Of a DNA stretch of 32,246 nt, positions 16,858 to 23,620 are shown one piece after another (the stretch's first letter is position 1; each line of letters opens with the position of its first letter). The notes under the pieces are model-generated. The model was not told the origin of the DNA. It worked only from the letters and a program-made list of their open reading frames with translations, and did not search any database. Source of the stretch: Nesterenkonia sp. F (GTDB lineage Bacteria > Actinomycetota > Actinomycetes > Actinomycetales > Micrococcaceae); assembly GCF_000220985.1 (NCBI RefSeq), contig NZ_AFRW01000091.1, positions 1 to 32,246 of the forward strand, given 5' to 3'. A program made the translations under genes and the position numbers.

Positions 16858-17184
16858 TCAGCGGGCCGTCGCAGCCGGCAGCGCGGCGGCGTCGCTCTGC
16901 AGGAACTCCGGCGCCTCCCACTGCGAGCGCGCCGCGGCGATCATCTCCGCCGAGACGTCGACGCCGAGCACCTCGCGGCCGCCCTCGGCCAGCAGCGCCG
17001 TCCAGTGGCCGGGTCCGCAGCCGACGTCGAGCATCGGCCCGCGGGTCGCATCCCGCCAGCGGGTGATCAGCGCGCGATCCTCGGCCGCCATCTGCTCCAG
17101 CGAGCCGAGCCGCGCGATGTACTCGGCGGCGCGGGCGTCGTAGGCGGAGGCGACGTCGTCGCCGGACTGCTCATCCGTCGGCAT
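16858..17184 (-). CDS. Truncated class I SAM-dependent methyltransferase (possible pseudogene)
   Basis: Only 108 residues are encoded. The N-terminal half of a class I methyltransferase is normal: YDARAAEYIARL, then SAM-binding motif I MLDVGCGPGHWTALLAE (51-67), the acidic end of strand 2 in VLGVDVSAEMI, and SDAAALP. The frame stops after PAATAR, exactly where motifs II-III should begin, so roughly 100 residues of a usual 200-220-residue enzyme are missing. The stop lies 2 bp from the 22-bp inverted repeat. No remnant of the lost part is visible downstream. The ATG at 17184 follows CAGACT by 6 nt (leaderless). Catalytic activity is doubtful. Confidence 0.7.
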   Translation of the reverse strand: MPTDEQSGDDVASAYDARAAEYIARLGSLEQMAAEDRALITRWRDATRGPMLDVGCGPGHWTALLAEGGREVLGVDVSAEMIAAARSQWEAPEFLQSDAAALPAATAR

Positions 17185-17190
17185 GCCCCC

Positions 17191-17196
17191 AGTCTG
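17191..17196 (-). promoter_or_regulatory. -10 box (CAGACT) of the truncated methyltransferase gene
   Basis: CAGACT on the minus strand, then GGGGGC and the ATG at 17184. The same box-to-start arrangement occurs at five other genes here. Confidence 0.5.
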
Positions 17197-17243
17197 CCCG
17201 GGCAGAGGTGCCTCCCGTTCCCGACGCTCCGCTCCGGGCCGGT

Positions 17244-18236
17244 TCACCGCCCCGCGACCGTCGAGGCGCGCACCACCAGCGACGGCGCGGCCACCTCGGT
17301 CTGGACGCCGCGTCCGGCCAGCAGCTCGCCCAGCTGGGCCATCGCCGCTCGCCCCATCGCCCCGCGCGGCTGATCGACGCTGGTCAGCCCGGGACGCAGC
17401 AGACCGGCGAGCTCGGTGTTGTCATATCCGACGACGGCGAGATCCTCCGGCGCCGCCAGCCCCCGGTCCAGCGCCTCGCCGAGCAGACCGGCTGCGATCC
17501 GGTCGTTGGAGGCGAAGACCGCCGTCGGCCCCTCCCCGGCGCCGACGGCCGCCAGCAGCCGCTCGACGCCGCGGTCGCGGGCGTCGAACTCCTGGGCGAC
17601 GACGCCGGCGGCCGCCATCTCCTCCCGCCAGGCGTCGCGGCGCGCCGAGGCGGCCGGCCGATCCGAACCGCGGAGCATCGCGATCCGCCGGTGCCCCAGC
17701 GACTGCAGATGCGCCGTCGCCAGCCGGGCGCCGGCCGCGTCGTCGTTGCGCACCTGCCCGACGCCGTCGGGGACGCCGACCGGACGGCCGACCACGACCA
17801 TCGGCGCCCGCGCGGACGCCGCGGCGAGGTCCTCCGGCGGCAGGTGCGAGGTGACGGCGATGACGCCGTCGACGCCGAGGTCCACCAGCTCGTCGAGGTG
17901 CCGATGCAGCAGCGCCCGGTCCCGTCGGCCGTGGCGCAGCAGCACGCCCAGGCCGGCCTCGGCGGCGGCGTCCTCGATCCCGTTGACGATGTCGGTGTGG
18001 TACGCATTGCGCAGGTCGGTGAGCAGCACGCCGATCAGCTGACTGCGCCCGCTGACCAGCCGCTGGGCCCAGCCGTTCTTCCGATAGCCCAGCCGCTCCG
18101 CGGCCGCGAGGACGCGGTCGCGGCTTTCGCCGCTGACGCCGGAGTCGCCGCGCAGGGCGGCCGAGACCTGAGACTTCGAGACCCCTGCGGCGCGGGCGAC
18201 GTCGATGATCGTGGGGCGGGCTGACTCCGGAGGCAT
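17244..18236 (-). CDS. LacI-family transcriptional regulator
   Basis: A complete 330-residue LacI/GalR protein. The N-terminal helix-turn-helix (TIIDVARAAGVSKSQVSAAL, 9-28) and hinge region (NGWAQRLVSGRS) are followed by a periplasmic-binding-protein-like effector domain with GHRRIAMLRG, GPTAVFASNDRIAAGLLGEA and DLAVVGYDNTELA. The ATG at 18236 has GGAGG just upstream. The gene is divergent from the HAD-ECF operon, and two copies of the palindrome GGAACGTTCC lie in front of and inside the first gene of that operon, so it is very likely the local repressor. The effector is unknown; family members usually sense sugars or nucleosides. Confidence 0.93.
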   Translation of the reverse strand: MPPESARPTIIDVARAAGVSKSQVSAALRGDSGVSGESRDRVLAAAERLGYRKNGWAQRLVSGRSQLIGVLLTDLRNAYHTDIVNGIEDAAAEAGLGVLLRHGRRDRALLHRHLDELVDLGVDGVIAVTSHLPPEDLAAASARAPMVVVGRPVGVPDGVGQVRNDDAAGARLATAHLQSLGHRRIAMLRGSDRPAASARRDAWREEMAAAGVVAQEFDARDRGVERLLAAVGAGEGPTAVFASNDRIAAGLLGEALDRGLAAPEDLAVVGYDNTELAGLLRPGLTSVDQPRGAMGRAAMAQLGELLAGRGVQTEVAAPSLVVRASTVAGR

Positions 18237-18285
18237 CACCCTCCGTTCTACCACTGCGGCGCGGGCGGCGGAGGGATCGTCGCCG

Positions 18286-18302
18286 ACGTTCCGGAACGTT
18301 CC
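18286..18302. promoter_or_regulatory. Operator O1 of the divergent LacI regulator
   Basis: It contains the 14-bp perfect palindrome ACGTTCCGGAACGT (18286-18299) and the overlapping palindrome GGAACGTTCC (18293-18302). It sits 50 bp upstream of the LacI-family start and about 60 bp upstream of the HAD gene, with TTGTCC and CCTACT (a weak promoter) between it and that gene. Confidence 0.75.
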
Positions 18303-18359
18303 AGTCGTCGTCACCTGCGGTTGTCCCGGATGCCACGTGATCGGCCTACTGTCGACGAC

Positions 18360-19997
18360 ATGACCATCGAACCCCTCCTCCGGAACGTTCCGGAAGCGCT
18401 GCTGCTGGACTTCGGCGGCGTCATCGTCGAGACCCGCAAGCACCCCGACGGTCGGGACCGACTGGCCGGACTGCTCACCGAGCGGCTCCGCCGGGCGCTG
18501 CTCCCCGCCGACGCGCGGGAGATCCGCCGCTCGTTGGACGCGGCGCTGACCGCACTGAAGCACTGGAAGCACGCCCAGAGCCGACGCCCTGCGCCGCAGG
18601 AGATGAGCCCCCGCGAGGTCGTCGCCGATTTCCTGGCCGCCGATCTGCCGACGCCGGCGCGCACGCTGCTCACCGTCGAAGCCGACGAGGTGCTGGCCGA
18701 GGTCACCTGCACCCTCTCCGCCCATGACCTGCGACCGGGCGTCGAGGAGCTGCTCGATCTCGCCGATTCCCGAGGCCTGCCCGTCGGGGTCGTGTCCAAC
18801 GCCCACTCCGGCCGCAGCCACCGGATGCTGCTCGACCAGCTCGGGCTCGCCGACCGGATCGCCGTGCAGTGCTACTCCGACGAGATCGGCCTGCGGAAGC
18901 CCCACCCGGGGCTGATCGAGCTCGCCGCCGAGGCGCTGGGCACCGCACCGGAACGCTGCTGGTACGTCGGCGACACACAGGATCGCGACGTCGTCGCCGG
19001 TCGACGCGCCGGCGCCGGCGTCGTCGTGCTCACCCGCAGCCATCACACCGACCACCCGCCCTTCGCCGTCGCCGATCAGGCCGACGCGGTGCTGGAGACC
19101 CCGGCCGAGCTCGCGACTGCGCTGCGCGAGACCCTCGACGCCGCCCCGACGACTGCGGGCCCTCCCGCGTCGAACTCCACGGGCGGCGGCGACGGCGACG
19201 CCGTCGACGAGGTCGACAGTGCGGCCACGCCGTCCCGCGGGGCCCTGCTCATCGACCACGGCGGGGTGATCTCCACCTCCGCCCCGGATCCCGAGGCGCT
19301 GGAGCAGATGCTGGGCCACCTGACCCGACTGCTCGACCACCGGGCACCTGAGCCTCCGCTCGGCCGCGCCGGGGTCCTGGAGCGGCTCACCGCCGCCCGA
19401 GCCGAGCACAAGTCCGCCAAACGACGGGACCCCCTCCAGGAGATCTCCCCGCGGACCTTCTGGCACGCCTGGTTCGGCGCCGAACTGTCGGCGCGCCGCC
19501 GCGCCCTCCTCGCCGCCGAGGCCACGGACCTGATGGCCCGCTGGGGCGCGGCCAAGTCGCGACGACTGCTGCGCCGGGGCGTGCGGGCCCTGCTGGAGGA
19601 GTGCTTCCAGGCCGGTCGACCGGTCGTGGTCGTCTCCAACACCGTCAGCGGCCGATCCGTGCGCTCCGCCTGCGCCGCCCACGGGATCGACCATCTGATC
19701 GCGGCCAGCGTCTGCTCCGACGAGGCCGGGTGGAGGAAGCCGGATTCCGCCATGGTCCGCGAGGCGCTCCAGCTCGCCGACGCCGATCCGTCGCGCAGCA
19801 TCTTCTACGGCGACAAGCCGCAGAACGACGCCGTCGCCGCCCGGGCCTGCGGCATCGGCCGCAGAGTCCTGGTCCGCGGCGGCTCCACCGAGGACGCGGC
19901 CCTCGACGCCGCCCTCGCCGAAGGACTGGCCACCGACGTGGTCGCCGAGGCCGACGAGCTGATCGCCCTCCTCGGGACGCCGGCCCGCGCCGCCTGA
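18360..19997 (+). CDS. Tandem HAD-family hydrolase (two fused HAD domains)
   Basis: 545 residues carry two complete HAD units joined by an Ala/Gly/Asp-rich linker (about 256-292). Unit 1: nucleophile D17 (LLLDFGGVIVE), S146 (VVSNAHSGRS), K180 (GLRKPHPG), D205/D210 (YVGDTQDRD). Unit 2: D299 (LLIDHGGVIST), S426 (VVSNTVSGRS), K460 (GWRKPDSA), D485/D490 (YGDKPQND). Both have Gly two residues after the nucleophile, as in YihX-like phosphatases. Cap regions also match (PQEMSPR versus LQEISPR), so the protein arose by duplication. It is likely a cytosolic phosphatase. The ATG at 18360 lacks a ribosome site and is 7 nt after TACTGT, possibly leaderless. It heads the ECF operon. Confidence 0.88.
   Translation: MTIEPLLRNVPEALLLDFGGVIVETRKHPDGRDRLAGLLTERLRRALLPADAREIRRSLDAALTALKHWKHAQSRRPAPQEMSPREVVADFLAADLPTPARTLLTVEADEVLAEVTCTLSAHDLRPGVEELLDLADSRGLPVGVVSNAHSGRSHRMLLDQLGLADRIAVQCYSDEIGLRKPHPGLIELAAEALGTAPERCWYVGDTQDRDVVAGRRAGAGVVVLTRSHHTDHPPFAVADQADAVLETPAELATALRETLDAAPTTAGPPASNSTGGGDGDAVDEVDSAATPSRGALLIDHGGVISTSAPDPEALEQMLGHLTRLLDHRAPEPPLGRAGVLERLTAARAEHKSAKRRDPLQEISPRTFWHAWFGAELSARRRALLAAEATDLMARWGAAKSRRLLRRGVRALLEECFQAGRPVVVVSNTVSGRSVRSACAAHGIDHLIAASVCSDEAGWRKPDSAMVREALQLADADPSRSIFYGDKPQNDAVAARACGIGRRVLVRGGSTEDAALDAALAEGLATDVVAEADELIALLGTPARAA
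18379..18394. promoter_or_regulatory. Operator O2 inside the start of the HAD gene
   Basis: A perfect 16-bp palindrome, TCCGGAACGTTCCGGA, covers codons 7-12 of the HAD gene. Its core GGAACGTTCC is identical to O1 and is centred 89 bp away, a spacing compatible with repression by looping. CG-centred symmetry is typical of LacI-family operators. Confidence 0.75.
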
Positions 19998-20111
19998 GGC
20001 CTGCCGGGGCGCCGCCCCACAGGACCTCGTCCGCCGCACGACCGCCCGCCCCACATGCTGTCCGTCCCGCACCGCACCGCCCGTCCCCGCGCATCTCCGG
20101 AGGAGAATCCC

Positions 20112-21017
20112 ATGACCACCACGTACGACGCCCGCCGCGGCACGCTGCGCGGCACCGCCGGTCCGACGTCCTCGACGTCGCAGAACCTGATGATCTTCGT
20201 GCTCTCCATGAGCCTGTTCGGCCTCTCCAACATCCTGCTGGAGGTCATTCCGGACGTCAGTCTCGGCCCGGTCGAGATCTCGGTCAGCTACTTCGTCTTC
20301 ATCCCGCTGACGCTGGCCGCGCTGCTCTCACCCTTCTGGGTGGCCCTCGGCGCCCCGCTGGGCGAGATCGTGTTCACCGACCTGCTGATGGGCGACTTCT
20401 CCGGACTCGCCGAGGTCGAGGGCTTCATCCAGATGTTCCTGGCGGTGTTCATCGCCGGCTCGCTGATCCGGAACCCGCGCAGCAGGGTCCAGCTCGTCCT
20501 CGGCGCGCTGCTGGTGGTCGGCATCGACAAGCTCCTCTCCGCGGCGGTCGACCTCGCCAAGGTCTGGGTCGGCGTCGAGGAGGCCGAGCTGGTCGCCGGA
20601 CTGCCCGAGTCGATCCTGCTGCTGGAGGGCATCGGATTCGTCGTCGACCTGCTGATGTCCGGGGTGCTCTTCGGCGTCGTCCCCGCCCTGTGGCTGGTGC
20701 CGCAGCTGCACGGGCGCCTCGAGCCGCTGCTCGGTCTGCAGCCGCGCGAGCCCGGCCGCCCCGTCCCCGGCTCGGCGCCGCGAGCGACCTGGTTCGTGGT
20801 GGTCGCCGTGCTGGCCGGAGCCGGCTCCTTCTTCTTCGCGTTCCTCGAGGAGGTCGACATGTCGCCGGGCGCCCTCGATGCCGAGCTCGACGCCTCCTTC
20901 CTGTGGATCAGCGCCGGCGCCGCCGCGGTGCTGCTGACGATCGCCGCGGTCCTCTTCGCCGTGCACCGGCGTCGTGCCGCGGCCACCTCGACCCTCCGGG
21001 ACGAGGACGCGGCATGA
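20112..21017 (+). CDS. ECF transporter S component (substrate-binding membrane subunit), unknown substrate
   Basis: 301 residues with an N-terminal hydrophilic leader and six or more hydrophobic segments, including LMIFVLSMSLFGLSNILLEV, YFVFIPLTLAALLSPFWVAL and LLLEGIGFVVDLLMSGVLFG. The ALLSPFWVALGAPLGEIVFTD region and the acidic loop LLMGDFSGLAEVEGF resemble S components of energy-coupling-factor importers. Position directly before the ECF ATPase and EcfT genes supports this. It is longer than most S components (about 180-220), with an extra C-terminal helix pair and a basic tail. The ATG at 20112 has GGAGGAG upstream. The stop overlaps the ATPase start (ATGA). Substrate specificity cannot be read; no TPP riboswitch is seen in the 114-bp upstream gap. 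Confidence 0.75.
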   Translation: MTTTYDARRGTLRGTAGPTSSTSQNLMIFVLSMSLFGLSNILLEVIPDVSLGPVEISVSYFVFIPLTLAALLSPFWVALGAPLGEIVFTDLLMGDFSGLAEVEGFIQMFLAVFIAGSLIRNPRSRVQLVLGALLVVGIDKLLSAAVDLAKVWVGVEEAELVAGLPESILLLEGIGFVVDLLMSGVLFGVVPALWLVPQLHGRLEPLLGLQPREPGRPVPGSAPRATWFVVVAVLAGAGSFFFAFLEEVDMSPGALDAELDASFLWISAGAAAVLLTIAAVLFAVHRRRAAATSTLRDEDAA

Positions 21018-22771
21018 GCGCGCCGATCATCGCGGCCGAGGCGCTGAGCTTCCGCTACCCCGGCGCCCCGACCGACACGCTGCGCAACGTGGACCTGCGG
21101 ATCGAGCGCGGCGACTTCGTCGCCGTCGTCGGCGGCAACGGCTCCGGCAAGACCACGCTGTGCAAGACCTTCAACGGCCTGGTGCCGCACTACTGGTCCG
21201 GAGAGTTCGCCGGCCGGGTGACCGTGGACGGACAGGACACCTTCACCTCCTCGGTGGCGGAGCTCTCGCAGACCGTCGGCTACGTCTATCAGGACTTCCA
21301 GAACCAGCTGGTCCGTCCCACCGTGCGCGACGAGGTCTCCTTCGGGCCGGTGAACTTCGGTCGCCCGGACCACGCCGAGCGCACCGCCGAGGCGCTGGAG
21401 ATGGTCGGCATCGAGCACCTGGCCGAGAAGTTCGTCTGGCAGCTCTCCGGCGGCCAGTCCCATCTGGTGGCCCTGGCCTCCGTGCTCGCGCTGCGCCCGG
21501 AGGTCATCGTCGTCGACGAGCCGGTCGCCGAGCTCGACCCGGCGGCGGCCGAGGAGGTCTATCGCCGACTCACGGCATTGAACCGCGATCACGGACTGAC
21601 GGTCATCACCATCGAGCACCACGCCGAGTTCATCGCCGCCCACGCCCGATCGGTGCTGCTGATGAGCGACGGATCCCCGGTCTGGCACCTGCCGACCGAC
21701 CAGGCCCTGGCCCGGGCGGACGAGCTGAGCCGCCACGGCATCCCGGCGCCGCAGATCGTCGACGCCGCCGCCCGGCTGGGGCTGCCGCAGGTTCCACAGT
21801 CGGTCGCCGACGCCGCCGCGATGCTGAGCGAGCACCGCCGGGCCCCGTACCCCGACCCGGCGACGACGACGGCGACGACGGCGACGGCGCCGCGGGATCG
21901 TCCCGCGACCGGCGAGCGCTCCGTCGTCGTCGCCGAGGGGATCCGCCACGCCCACCGCGGCGTGCGCGGGGAGCTGCGGCCGGTGCTCGACGATCTCGAC
22001 CTGCAGCTGCATGCCGGCGACCGCGTCGCGCTGATCGGCGGCAACGGAGCGGGCAAGACCACATTGATGAAGCTGCTGGCCGGCATCGCCGTCCCACGCG
22101 CCGGCGAGATCCTGCTGGAGGGGATCAGCACCCGCTCGCGGAGCGCCCGTCGGCTGGCCGACCAGGCCTGCTATCTGGACCAGCGGCCGGAACGGATGTT
22201 CCTGAAGGACTCCGTGCGCGCCGACGTCGCGCTCTTCCCGCGCGGCCGCGGCGTCGACGACGCCGAGCAGCTGGTCGATCGCATCCTGCGGCGTGTGCGG
22301 CTGGAGCAGCTCTCCGACCGCGACGGCCGCACGCTCTCCGGAGGACAGCAGCGCCGCGCGACCCTGGGGATCGGGCTGGCCATGCGCCCGAGCCTGCTGC
22401 TGCTCGACGAACCCACCGCCTCGCTGGACGTCGCCAGCCGCGACGACGTGATCACCATGCTCGACGAGCTCTCCGACGACATCGCCTGCTCGGTCGTCGC
22501 CACCCACGACATGCACCTGGTCGCCGAATGGGCCACCCGGGTGATCGCCCTGGAGCACGGACGCGTGCTGGCCGACATGGCCCCGGCGGAGCTCTTCGCC
22601 AGCCCCGAGATCATGCGGCGGGCCCGACTGGTGCCGCCGCAGGTCGTCGAGCTGGGGCTGGCGCTGGGCATGGAGCCGCCGCCGTTGAGCGTCGCGGAGC
22701 TGCTGGACGCCTGCGCCGACCGCACCGAGCCGACCGCCGACCGCACCGAGGAGGCCCCCGCATGGCGCTGA
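21014..22771 (+). CDS. ECF transporter ATPase, two nucleotide-binding domains fused
   Basis: 585 residues hold two ABC ATPase domains in one chain, equivalent to EcfA plus EcfA'. Domain 1: Walker A GGNGSGKTT (K46), Q93, signature LSGGQ (144-148), Walker B VIVVDEP (D168, E169), switch region EHH at 201-203. Linker about 270-300 is Thr/Ala-rich (GAC/GGC triplet runs). Domain 2: Walker A GGNGAGKTT (K348), signature LSGGQQRR, Walker B LLLLDEPT (D465, E466), H498. Domain 1 reads LSGGQSH where family members usually have LSGGQ followed by Lys/Arg-Gln-Arg. The S, fused-ATPase, T gene order equals that of ykoEDC-type ECF importers. The start overlaps the S-component stop by 4 bp. Confidence 0.93.
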   Translation: MSAPIIAAEALSFRYPGAPTDTLRNVDLRIERGDFVAVVGGNGSGKTTLCKTFNGLVPHYWSGEFAGRVTVDGQDTFTSSVAELSQTVGYVYQDFQNQLVRPTVRDEVSFGPVNFGRPDHAERTAEALEMVGIEHLAEKFVWQLSGGQSHLVALASVLALRPEVIVVDEPVAELDPAAAEEVYRRLTALNRDHGLTVITIEHHAEFIAAHARSVLLMSDGSPVWHLPTDQALARADELSRHGIPAPQIVDAAARLGLPQVPQSVADAAAMLSEHRRAPYPDPATTTATTATAPRDRPATGERSVVVAEGIRHAHRGVRGELRPVLDDLDLQLHAGDRVALIGGNGAGKTTLMKLLAGIAVPRAGEILLEGISTRSRSARRLADQACYLDQRPERMFLKDSVRADVALFPRGRGVDDAEQLVDRILRRVRLEQLSDRDGRTLSGGQQRRATLGIGLAMRPSLLLLDEPTASLDVASRDDVITMLDELSDDIACSVVATHDMHLVAEWATRVIALEHGRVLADMAPAELFASPEIMRRARLVPPQVVELGLALGMEPPPLSVAELLDACADRTEPTADRTEEAPAWR

Positions 22772-23595
22772 CCCGCACCACCCACGATGTGCTCTCGGTG
22801 GAGTGGATCAAGCTGGAGCTGATCCGCACCGCCTACGCCACCCGCGGCGGACTCGTCGCCCGTATGGACCCGCGCGTGGTCCTGGGCTGGTACGCCCTGC
22901 TCGCCCTGGCGCCGTGGTTCACCCACAACCTGACCACGCTCGGCGCGCTGTTCGTCCTCGCCGCGGTCTTCGTCGTGCTGGCCCGCGTCGGTCCGCTGGT
23001 GCTGGGACTCTTCGTCATCGGGCTCATCTCCGAGATGGTCTACCTGGCGGTGGCCGCGCTGTTCTTCGACGGCGACCTCGACACCGTCCTGGCGCTGACC
23101 GAGGTCACCCTCAAGCTCGGCGTCGTCTCGCTGGCCAGTCTGGCCGCCTTCGTCTCGCTGGATCCCGAGAAGCTCTCCGACGCGCTGCTGGCGCTGCGCA
23201 TGCCGGCGACGGCGGCCTTCGCCGTCAGCTACGGATACCGGATGATGCCGATCCTCGTCGAGGAGTTCTCCACCGTGCTGGAGAGCGCCCGGCTGCGCGA
23301 GCCCGCGCCCTCCCGCGGCGGGGTGCTGGGGTGGCGGCATCTGGTGCACTGGGCGACGCTGGTGGTGCGGGCCTTCTACCCGATCTTCCTCAACACCGCG
23401 AAGTCGGTGCGCACGACGGTGGAGGCCCTGGAGGCTCGCGGGTTCACCGCGGCGACGATCGACCCGCGGGCACGTGCGATCCGCCTGGCCTCGCTGCGCG
23501 TGACCGGGCTGGACCTCGCCGTCGTCGCCGCCACGCTCGCCGCCGTCGTCGGCTGCCACCTCATCGGCGCGCAGTGGCCGCTGCACCGCGGCTGA
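22762..23595 (+). CDS. ECF transporter transmembrane component EcfT (CbiQ-like)
   Basis: 277 residues with about five to six membrane helices. The cytoplasmic coupling region holds the two Ala-Arg motifs that contact the ATPases: SARLRE (175-180) and EARGF (224-228), the latter after RTTVEALEA. The fold and motif spacing match EcfT/CbiQ. It joins the S component and double ATPase to form the importer. The ATG at 22762 has GAGGAG 8 nt upstream and overlaps the ATPase gene by 10 bp, so all three transporter genes are translationally coupled. It is the last gene of the operon, and its stop pairs with that of the convergent gene. Confidence 0.93.
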   Translation: MALTRTTHDVLSVEWIKLELIRTAYATRGGLVARMDPRVVLGWYALLALAPWFTHNLTTLGALFVLAAVFVVLARVGPLVLGLFVIGLISEMVYLAVAALFFDGDLDTVLALTEVTLKLGVVSLASLAAFVSLDPEKLSDALLALRMPATAAFAVSYGYRMMPILVEEFSTVLESARLREPAPSRGGVLGWRHLVHWATLVVRAFYPIFLNTAKSVRTTVEALEARGFTAATIDPRARAIRLASLRVTGLDLAVVAATLAAVVGCHLIGAQWPLHRG

Positions 23596-23620
23596 TCCGG
23601 CTCCCGGCGCCGAGTCAGCC
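23590..23620. terminator. Convergent-gene hairpin built from both stop codons
   Basis: GGCTGA (23590-23595) pairs with TCAGCC (23615-23620), and CGGC/GCCG adds an inner stem. The two genes end only 19 bp apart, and their stop codons are opposite each other in the stem. Confidence 0.6.

Follow-up and report, generated by a model that had tools for sequence, protein, structure and literature searches.

A LacI-linked ECF importer cassette with a tandem HAD phosphatase in Nesterenkonia, and its possible connection with phytate-derived inositol phosphates

The locus and its genes

One stretch of DNA from Nesterenkonia sp. F, positions 1 to 32,246 of contig NZ_AFRW01000091.1 (here called the window; 32,246 nucleotides), carries a compact gene set for an importer of the energy-coupling factor (ECF) type. 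A gene for a LacI-family regulator is divergent from a tight run of four genes: a tandem HAD phosphatase, the S component, a fused double ATPase (AA') and the transmembrane component EcfT (T). This gene reading was proposed in a first-pass annotation, made by a model from the sequence alone; all the parts are located as it stated, with profiles for LacI, AA' and T above their cut-offs. Comparison with related loci marks the set as a conserved cassette, to judge by the sequences an acquired one, and tentatively suggests a phosphorylated polyol or sugar as its cargo. The features are:

17244..18239, minus strand: LacI-family regulator, 331 residues; Pfam LacI 50.3 bits (cut-off 27), Peripla_BP_3 110.2 bits (cut-off 26.5)
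18291..18304, no strand: operator 1, CCGGAACGTTCCAG, a palindrome in the LacI-HAD intergenic region
18360..19997, plus strand: tandem HAD phosphatase, 545 residues; both halves with catalytic residues; AlphaFold 2 (AF2) model
18380..18393, no strand: operator 2, CCGGAACGTTCCGG, a palindrome in the first codons of the HAD gene
20112..21017, plus strand: ECF S component, 301 residues; six-helix S-component core plus two extra C-terminal helices
21014..22771, plus strand: fused double ECF ATPase EcfAA', 585 residues; TIGR04520 354 bits (cut-off 315), in two stretches
22762..23595, plus strand: EcfT transmembrane component, 277 residues; CbiQ PF02361 38.1 bits (cut-off 25)
17146..23610, no strand: inserted segment, approximate extent; absent from relative G1003 (locus L128)

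The overlapping starts reported within the transporter are confirmed by the coordinates (4 bases between S and AA', 10 between AA' and T). A T component of the CbiQ/EcfT family and two ECF-type ATPases in a single fused chain place the transporter among ECF systems; the regulator has both the helix-turn-helix and the periplasmic-binding-like domain of the LacI family (Pfam). Its start is a GTG at 18239, with an alternative ATG at 18236. Rfam gave no match anywhere in the window, and the absence of a thiamine pyrophosphate (TPP) riboswitch, as first reported, stands.

A conserved and acquired unit

Peptides of the S component were used to scan 84,980 species genomes, which yielded 41 loci. The neighbourhood is widely kept in other actinobacteria, where the first-pass annotation had suggested looking for it: the five genes recur with the same order and strands in 36 loci, among them representatives of Microbacterium, Kocuria, Cellulomonas, Yaniella, Brachybacterium, Brevibacterium, Corynebacterium, Rhodococcus and Jonesia. 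Four of the five exceptions are truncated by contig ends. The fifth is a Nesterenkonia locus (L037, 9001-14284) in which no LacI gene was found and the HAD gene, intact, is inverted and lies downstream of EcfT; decay of that HAD gene was considered and rejected, its sole stop being at the gene end. A Streptomyces plasmid also has all five cassette genes. No additional conserved gene accompanies the cassette: among protein clusters present in at least three loci, with flanks of up to 9 kb, only those of the five genes cross genera.

Transporter and phosphatase travel together. Across 345 genomes of the class, the S component and the tandem HAD mark an identical set of nine; in 197 genomes of the family the S component occurs in ten, eight of them strong matches that all have the tandem HAD (one split over two contigs) and two of them weak matches to a short S, with no tandem HAD. 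Among 72,556 plasmids a single record matches the tandem HAD (E 1e-15), and that record carries the S-type transporter. The proposal of a dedicated phosphatase is supported.

In the relative G1003, about 90-93% identical in DNA, the neighbouring genes stand in the same order and the cassette is absent; homology ends at about 17145 and restarts at about 23583-23615. Four other relatives were fetched: in two (L131 and L132) the outer neighbours are adjacent, in L130 they lie 3.5 kb apart with no cassette match between them, and L129 covers the right side only. The S component is found in 3 of the 11 same-genus genomes of the family sample, and the copy in the window is closer to that of Kocuria (74%) than to two other Nesterenkonia copies (66 and 58%). 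No obvious target duplication was seen at the insertion junctions. Because the site is empty in a relative about 90% identical, the five-gene cassette is, on this comparison of sequences, a self-contained unit acquired horizontally. At the left edge of the insertion lies a short methyltransferase-like gene (16858-17184, 108 residues), whose 5' end is unlike that in the cassette-free relative.

The regulator and its operators

Two matching operators had been noted at the start; both are present, and CCGGAACGTTCCAG and CCGGAACGTTCCGG are the sole exact matches to CNGGAACGTTCCNG in the host genome assembly (2.8 Mb, 93% complete). One correction is needed: if translation of the HAD gene starts at the ATG at 18360, the second operator is itself coding sequence, its codons reading R-N-V-P. 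Several related loci have an operator site at a distance similar to that of operator 2. The operator core TGGAACGTTCCA, with at most one mismatch, occurs in the host genome only at 18292-18303. This core was chosen after the sequences had been inspected; with at most two mismatches it is present in 33 of 47 LacI-HAD intergenic regions (two of the 47 being second copies, L097 of L036 and L098 of L007), as against 0.6% of shuffled regions. Sites of the LacI kind, palindromic with a central CG and near the target, are present and conserved, and the proposed LacI control is supported. As the operator is confined to one locus in the host, LacI looks like a local regulator of the cassette. The idea that a wider LacI regulon might name the substrate was rejected, the host operator being found only here.

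A second operator type appears among 14 regions picked for having no TGGAACGTTCCA core or only a variant of it: TGCAGATCTGCA is exact in six (L025, L029, L031, L033, L040 and L043) and recurs with two mismatches in a seventh (L042). The recognition helix reads VSAS in exactly the six loci with exact TGCAGATCTGCA; in the window, and in every cassette LacI row that does not come from the 14 regions, it reads VSKS. Recognition helix and operator type have apparently co-evolved.

As for the effector pocket, the sugar-contact triad of E. coli LacI, which we take to be R197, N246 and D274, is retained at the aligned positions in 46, 42 and 42 of 46 proteins. Arginines line up with V150 (46/46) and F293 (45/46). 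An additional pocket arginine at position S191 appeared in one alignment and was gone in another, and was dropped.

The tandem HAD phosphatase

The two HAD halves are 36% identical to each other (E 9e-28), a level that indicates internal duplication. The first half has the nucleophile D17, K180 and the metal-binding pair D205/D210; the second has D299, K460 and D485/D490. In both halves these HAD-IA catalytic residues are conserved: among the 45 full-length sequences of the 48 aligned, no position departs in more than one row. Motif I is DFGGV in half 1 and DHGGV in half 2: the second Asp of the DxD pattern, presumably the general acid, is not present, and the catalytic mode of the putative enzyme is uncertain.

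An AF2 model (predicted local distance difference test score, pLDDT, 88.1) finds mostly HAD enzymes in Foldseek. Several sugar-phosphate phosphatases are among the Foldseek and profile matches; every profile match to a named phosphatase falls under its cut-off. A HAD tree, with the HADs of L059, L085 and L087 as an arbitrary root, unites both halves of the tandem proteins in one clade (0.956), which fits a single duplication, and this clade adjoins single HADs (0.948) linked to inositol catabolism (iol) genes or to phytases of the multiple inositol-polyphosphate phosphatase (MINPP) type.

The S component

Searched against Pfam at E up to 1, the S component matches nothing, and NCBIfam returns a single motif-type match far below its cut-off. 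A Pfam search of 18 diverse members, with E allowed up to 10, found no family in more than two of them and YkoE in none. Sequence search of the PDB gave one chance-level match (E 0.13). The first-pass annotation had named two findings that would overturn its reading, membership of S in a known vitamin group and a neighbourhood kept nowhere else. Neither is borne out: no Pfam or NCBIfam family could be assigned to S, and the neighbourhood is kept in 36 loci.

In the AlphaFold model (pLDDT 75.5; predicted template-modelling score, pTM, 0.66) the core has six helices, the first followed by a short pair of strands, and two more helices are added at the C-terminus. The 15 PDB structures that match the model best are without exception ECF S components, including FolT, PanT, ThiT, RibU and BioY (probability 0.82-1.00, E 0.045-0.81, template-modelling (TM) score to the target 0.48-0.66); a comparison library of viral structures gave no S-component-like match. 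Given the weak E values and these TM scores, the fold is supported and the specificity is not: the model supports an ECF S-component fold.

E103, D147, K150, E159 and E172 are among the residues that never vary in the members from actinobacteria, Niallia and haloarchaea; E44 and E85 are nearly invariant, and K150 is the sole Lys among the conserved outer-face residues. Judged by helix order, the conserved residues probably sit at the outer, ligand-binding ends.

The same regulator and phosphatase with other importers

Two Nesterenkonia genomes (G361 and G374) have the tandem HAD, no S component, and an Opp-type ATP-binding cassette (ABC) importer alongside; their LacI falls inside the LacI clade of the cassette (0.886, with L038). 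The binding protein of this importer is nearest to a putative oligopeptide-binding protein, then to the pectin-binding SPH1118, then to an alpha-galactoside binder (PMC9314435 and PMC7055323).

Single-HAD relatives, 38-46% identical, occur in eight genomes (L135, L136 and L154-L159). They were sought in the overlapping samples of 197 and 345 genomes, and as only the best 4-7 candidates per genome were scored, further single-HAD genomes may exist. Family scans were run on the proteins of L135, L154, L156 and L159; the others were assigned by alignment or by matching sequence starts. In all eight the HAD gene shares a run with the genes of an ABC importer, and the permease of each importer is a relative of the L135 permease (27% identical in L159, 50-82% in the remaining loci). 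An inositol monophosphatase is present in seven of the eight, and a histidine phosphatase (MINPP-type phytase) in four (L135, L136, L156 and L157); the L135 enzyme has a lipoprotein-like start, and its match to a multiple inositol-polyphosphate phosphatase of solved structure has an E value of 9e-85. Three loci (L154, L155 and L158) are adjoined by iolD and a phosphate permease gene, and two of these also by iolB; the contig of the third ends there. In L154, IolD scores 904.6 bits (cut-off 715) and IolB 291.1 bits (cut-off 205).

The LacI proteins of L135 and L136 group with those of the cassette when set against four other LacI proteins (0.921); their placement as sister to the cassette LacI or inside it is poorly supported (0.248). 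In both loci the operator core occurs twice upstream of the operon, with one mismatch.

Two layouts can be set out. In L135 (5731-13989), L136, L156 and L157, ABC importer, HAD, inositol monophosphatase and MINPP-type phytase form one run, a candidate phytate-utilisation operon. L154 (7994-17730) is a tight run of iolB, iolD, phosphate permease, DUF47, ABC permease and ATPase, HAD, inositol monophosphatase and a Cof-type HAD, with similar runs in L155 and L158; no binding-protein gene was called beside the L154-type run.

The same transporter family with other phosphatases

Of 296 genomes in the class of genome G110, taken for Coriobacteriia, 13 have the S component and 14 a PHP-like protein: the same 13 and G459, whose locus retains a truncated AA', T, PHP and RpiR. 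The order S-AA'-T-PHP-RpiR was examined in 13 loci, of which L090 (RpiR not called by the gene finder) and L093 (an inositol monophosphatase between PHP and RpiR) deviate. A single HAD lies near S in three loci of this class (L059, L085 and L087). The PHP label is soft: the two proteins scanned score 24-25 bits against a Pfam cut-off of 26.4, and PHP_C is above its cut-off in L059. Niallia taxi has an RpiR-like gene (27.9 bits, cut-off 28.3), S, AA', T and PHP (31.9 bits).

S-AA'-T is also carried by three haloarchaeal plasmids: the first with ComB and a distant CbiR-like TIM-barrel protein, the second with ComB and PHP, the third with two inositol monophosphatases and a PHP-like-looking protein that matches no family. 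A haloarchaeal neighbour of the S gene (L110, 8035-8820) resembles the cobamide phosphodiesterase CbiR (70 bits, cut-off 105). Among the distant S-transporter loci, inositol monophosphatase is present in L093 and L112. In the plasmid set the PHP protein is with an S-type transporter in its one record (1/1, E 1e-8), and ComB of this kind in two of three. Six plasmid records match S; that of Rubrobacter is a short S, with no phosphatase listed nearby. It belongs with a distant sister branch of four loci (L060, L061, L062 and L113, one of them on the Rubrobacter plasmid) that have a short S (188-193 residues), fused AA' and T.

Beyond the first-pass annotation, then, three things are observed: members of the transporter family occur in further lineages, Niallia and haloarchaea among them, next to phosphatases of unrelated kinds; LacI and tandem HAD occur with a second importer type; and the insertion has an empty site.

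What the cassette may import

The reading we favour, tentatively, is that the cassette is a horizontally acquired, self-regulated import-and-strip unit for a phosphorylated polyol or sugar, most likely the inositol phosphates derived from phytate. The S component, whose fold comes from the model, would capture the ligand outside the cell; EcfAA'T would hydrolyse ATP and carry the loaded S across, as in the ECF family at large; the tandem HAD would strip the phosphate in the cytoplasm, one of its halves perhaps doing the work of the inositol monophosphatase found with the single HAD in related operons. Ligand or product would bind LacI and so free the two operators, which, from their presence and uniqueness, should gate this cassette alone in the host genome.

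Import followed by dephosphorylation is proposed because it is the sole constant when either the transporter or the phosphatase is swapped; inositol phosphates are the best single candidate because of the phytase, inositol monophosphatase and iol links, with other sugar or polyol phosphates next. The first-pass annotation had suggested a sugar- or nucleoside-like compound or a cofactor. Comparative context favours a phosphorylated polyol or sugar, and nothing was found for a nucleoside or cofactor.

Several observations weigh against this account. At the level of partners, MINPP-type phytase and inositol monophosphatase are absent from the window and from the LacI-HAD-ECF loci (tblastn), and L159 is without an inositol monophosphatase. 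Sharing of LacI and operator extends to only two of the eight single-HAD operons: the other six have no operator core with at most one mismatch, and no LacI homologue was seen among their listed neighbours. L037 does without a divergent LacI. For the binding protein of L135 no match among solved structures was found, hence no kinship with sugar-phosphate binders is shown. The short distant S loci (L060-L062 and L113) show no phosphatase nearby, and the distant lineages have phosphatases of another descent than HAD-HAD, so that the substrate may differ: distant bacterial and haloarchaeal transporters may carry a different phosphate ester. The conserved residues at the presumed outer face of S are mostly acidic; an anionic ligand would be surprising there, unless it is held through a metal. 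Finally, iolE is above its cut-off in none of 42 genomes; 13 of the 42, the host included, have matches below the cut-off (120-156 bits), none of these in the class of G110, where there are weak partial matches only, in 3 of 14 genomes. The co-occurrence of iolE lends the inositol reading no clear support.

The alternative that survives best, though we think it unlikely, keeps import and stripping and changes the ester, to a hexose or heptose phosphate or a sugar-1-phosphate in place of an inositol phosphate. LacI and RpiR/SIS regulators typically sense sugars or sugar phosphates, and the sugar-phosphate phosphatases among the matches of the tandem HAD, by profiles below cut-off, would fit. 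Intact hexose and heptose phosphates are known ABC cargo (AfuABC, in the accessible part of PMC4546632). Common hexose phosphates, however, require no phosphatase once imported, and the phytase, the inositol monophosphatase and the iolD/iolB links point to inositol.

More doubtful is the import of an unphosphorylated substrate, a neutral or cationic polyol, amino sugar or other compound, with the phosphatases cleaning up wrongly phosphorylated forms. Such a ligand would suit the acid-rich outer face of S, and known ECF substrates are mostly unphosphorylated. It does not suit the repetition of the phosphatase linkage with unrelated folds, or the presence in the related operons of a phytase with a lipoprotein-like start, which would yield lower phosphate esters outside the cell.

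We regard as quite improbable a phosphorylated vitamin or cofactor, such as pyridoxal phosphate, dephosphorylated to feed cofactor pools. Vitamins are the usual ECF cargo, and pyridoxal phosphate has a known dedicated ABC importer (described in the accessible part of PMC8427247). No protein cluster of at least three loci crosses genera beyond the five genes, however; the window has no Rfam match and the regulators are of the sugar type; and related operons have phytase and iol links. A YkoEDC-type importer of thiamine or a thiamine precursor after loss of its riboswitch, identical in its gene order of S, fused AA' and T, is close to refuted: YkoE matches none of the 18 S members, the window has no Rfam match, and a YkoE-like gene preceded by a TPP riboswitch is present separately in the host.

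Returning to phosphate esters as cargo, a broader proposal can be made with somewhat greater reserve. A cross-domain ECF family with an eight-helix S may import phosphate esters (inositol phosphates in actinomycetes), re-equipped in each lineage with an available phosphatase fold (tandem HAD, PHP, inositol monophosphatase or ComB); its bacterial members would have gained a regulator of the sugar type as well (LacI or RpiR).

Significance and comparison with known systems

ECF transporters are regarded as importers of vitamins and metals. If the proposals made here are true, ECF transport extends to organophosphates, with the first ECF system for a phosphorylated polyol, and soil, gut and halophilic microbes would have a direct route to the phosphate and inositol of phytate. 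Swapping in both directions, one transporter being joined to several phosphatases and one phosphatase-regulator pair to a second transporter, yields a clear, testable prediction. No published description of this ECF family, or of an ECF system with LacI, RpiR, PHP or HAD partners, was found, in a search that most subscription journals lay outside. The literature search gave no ECF system in a LacI regulon ('ECF' and 'energy-coupling' occur 0 times in the accessible part of PMC4052901) and no inositol-phosphate importer; the uptake systems named in the accessible part of PMC7618129 are an inositol transporter and a phosphate system.

Three known or related systems invite comparison. The Group I ECF transporters of YkoEDC type are, like the cassette, a dedicated operon of S, fused double ATPase and T (PMC5037267, accessible part). 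The cassette differs in an S unrelated in sequence, with two extra C-terminal helices, in its phosphatase partner, and in LacI operators in place of the TPP riboswitch. The distinct importer first proposed is accordingly sustained: the host keeps a separate YkoE-like gene behind a TPP riboswitch, together with a BioY-like gene (both named by sequence reading, not by family scan), and Rfam, as a control, found the TPP riboswitch at that YkoE-like locus.

The AfuABC importers of hexose and heptose phosphates would resemble the cassette, if the favoured reading holds, in ATP-driven uptake of intact phosphate esters. Compared with these (PMC4546632), it has ECF architecture without a solute-binding protein, and includes phosphatases and a regulator; for the binding protein of L135 no sequence link to such importers was found.

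Closest are the single-HAD ABC operons (L135, L136 and L154-L159), which share with the cassette a homologous HAD and, in L135 and L136, a LacI of the same group and the same operator core. They differ from it in an unrelated transporter and, in some, in phytase or iol genes; where the cassette has its second HAD domain, they have, L159 excepted, an inositol monophosphatase.

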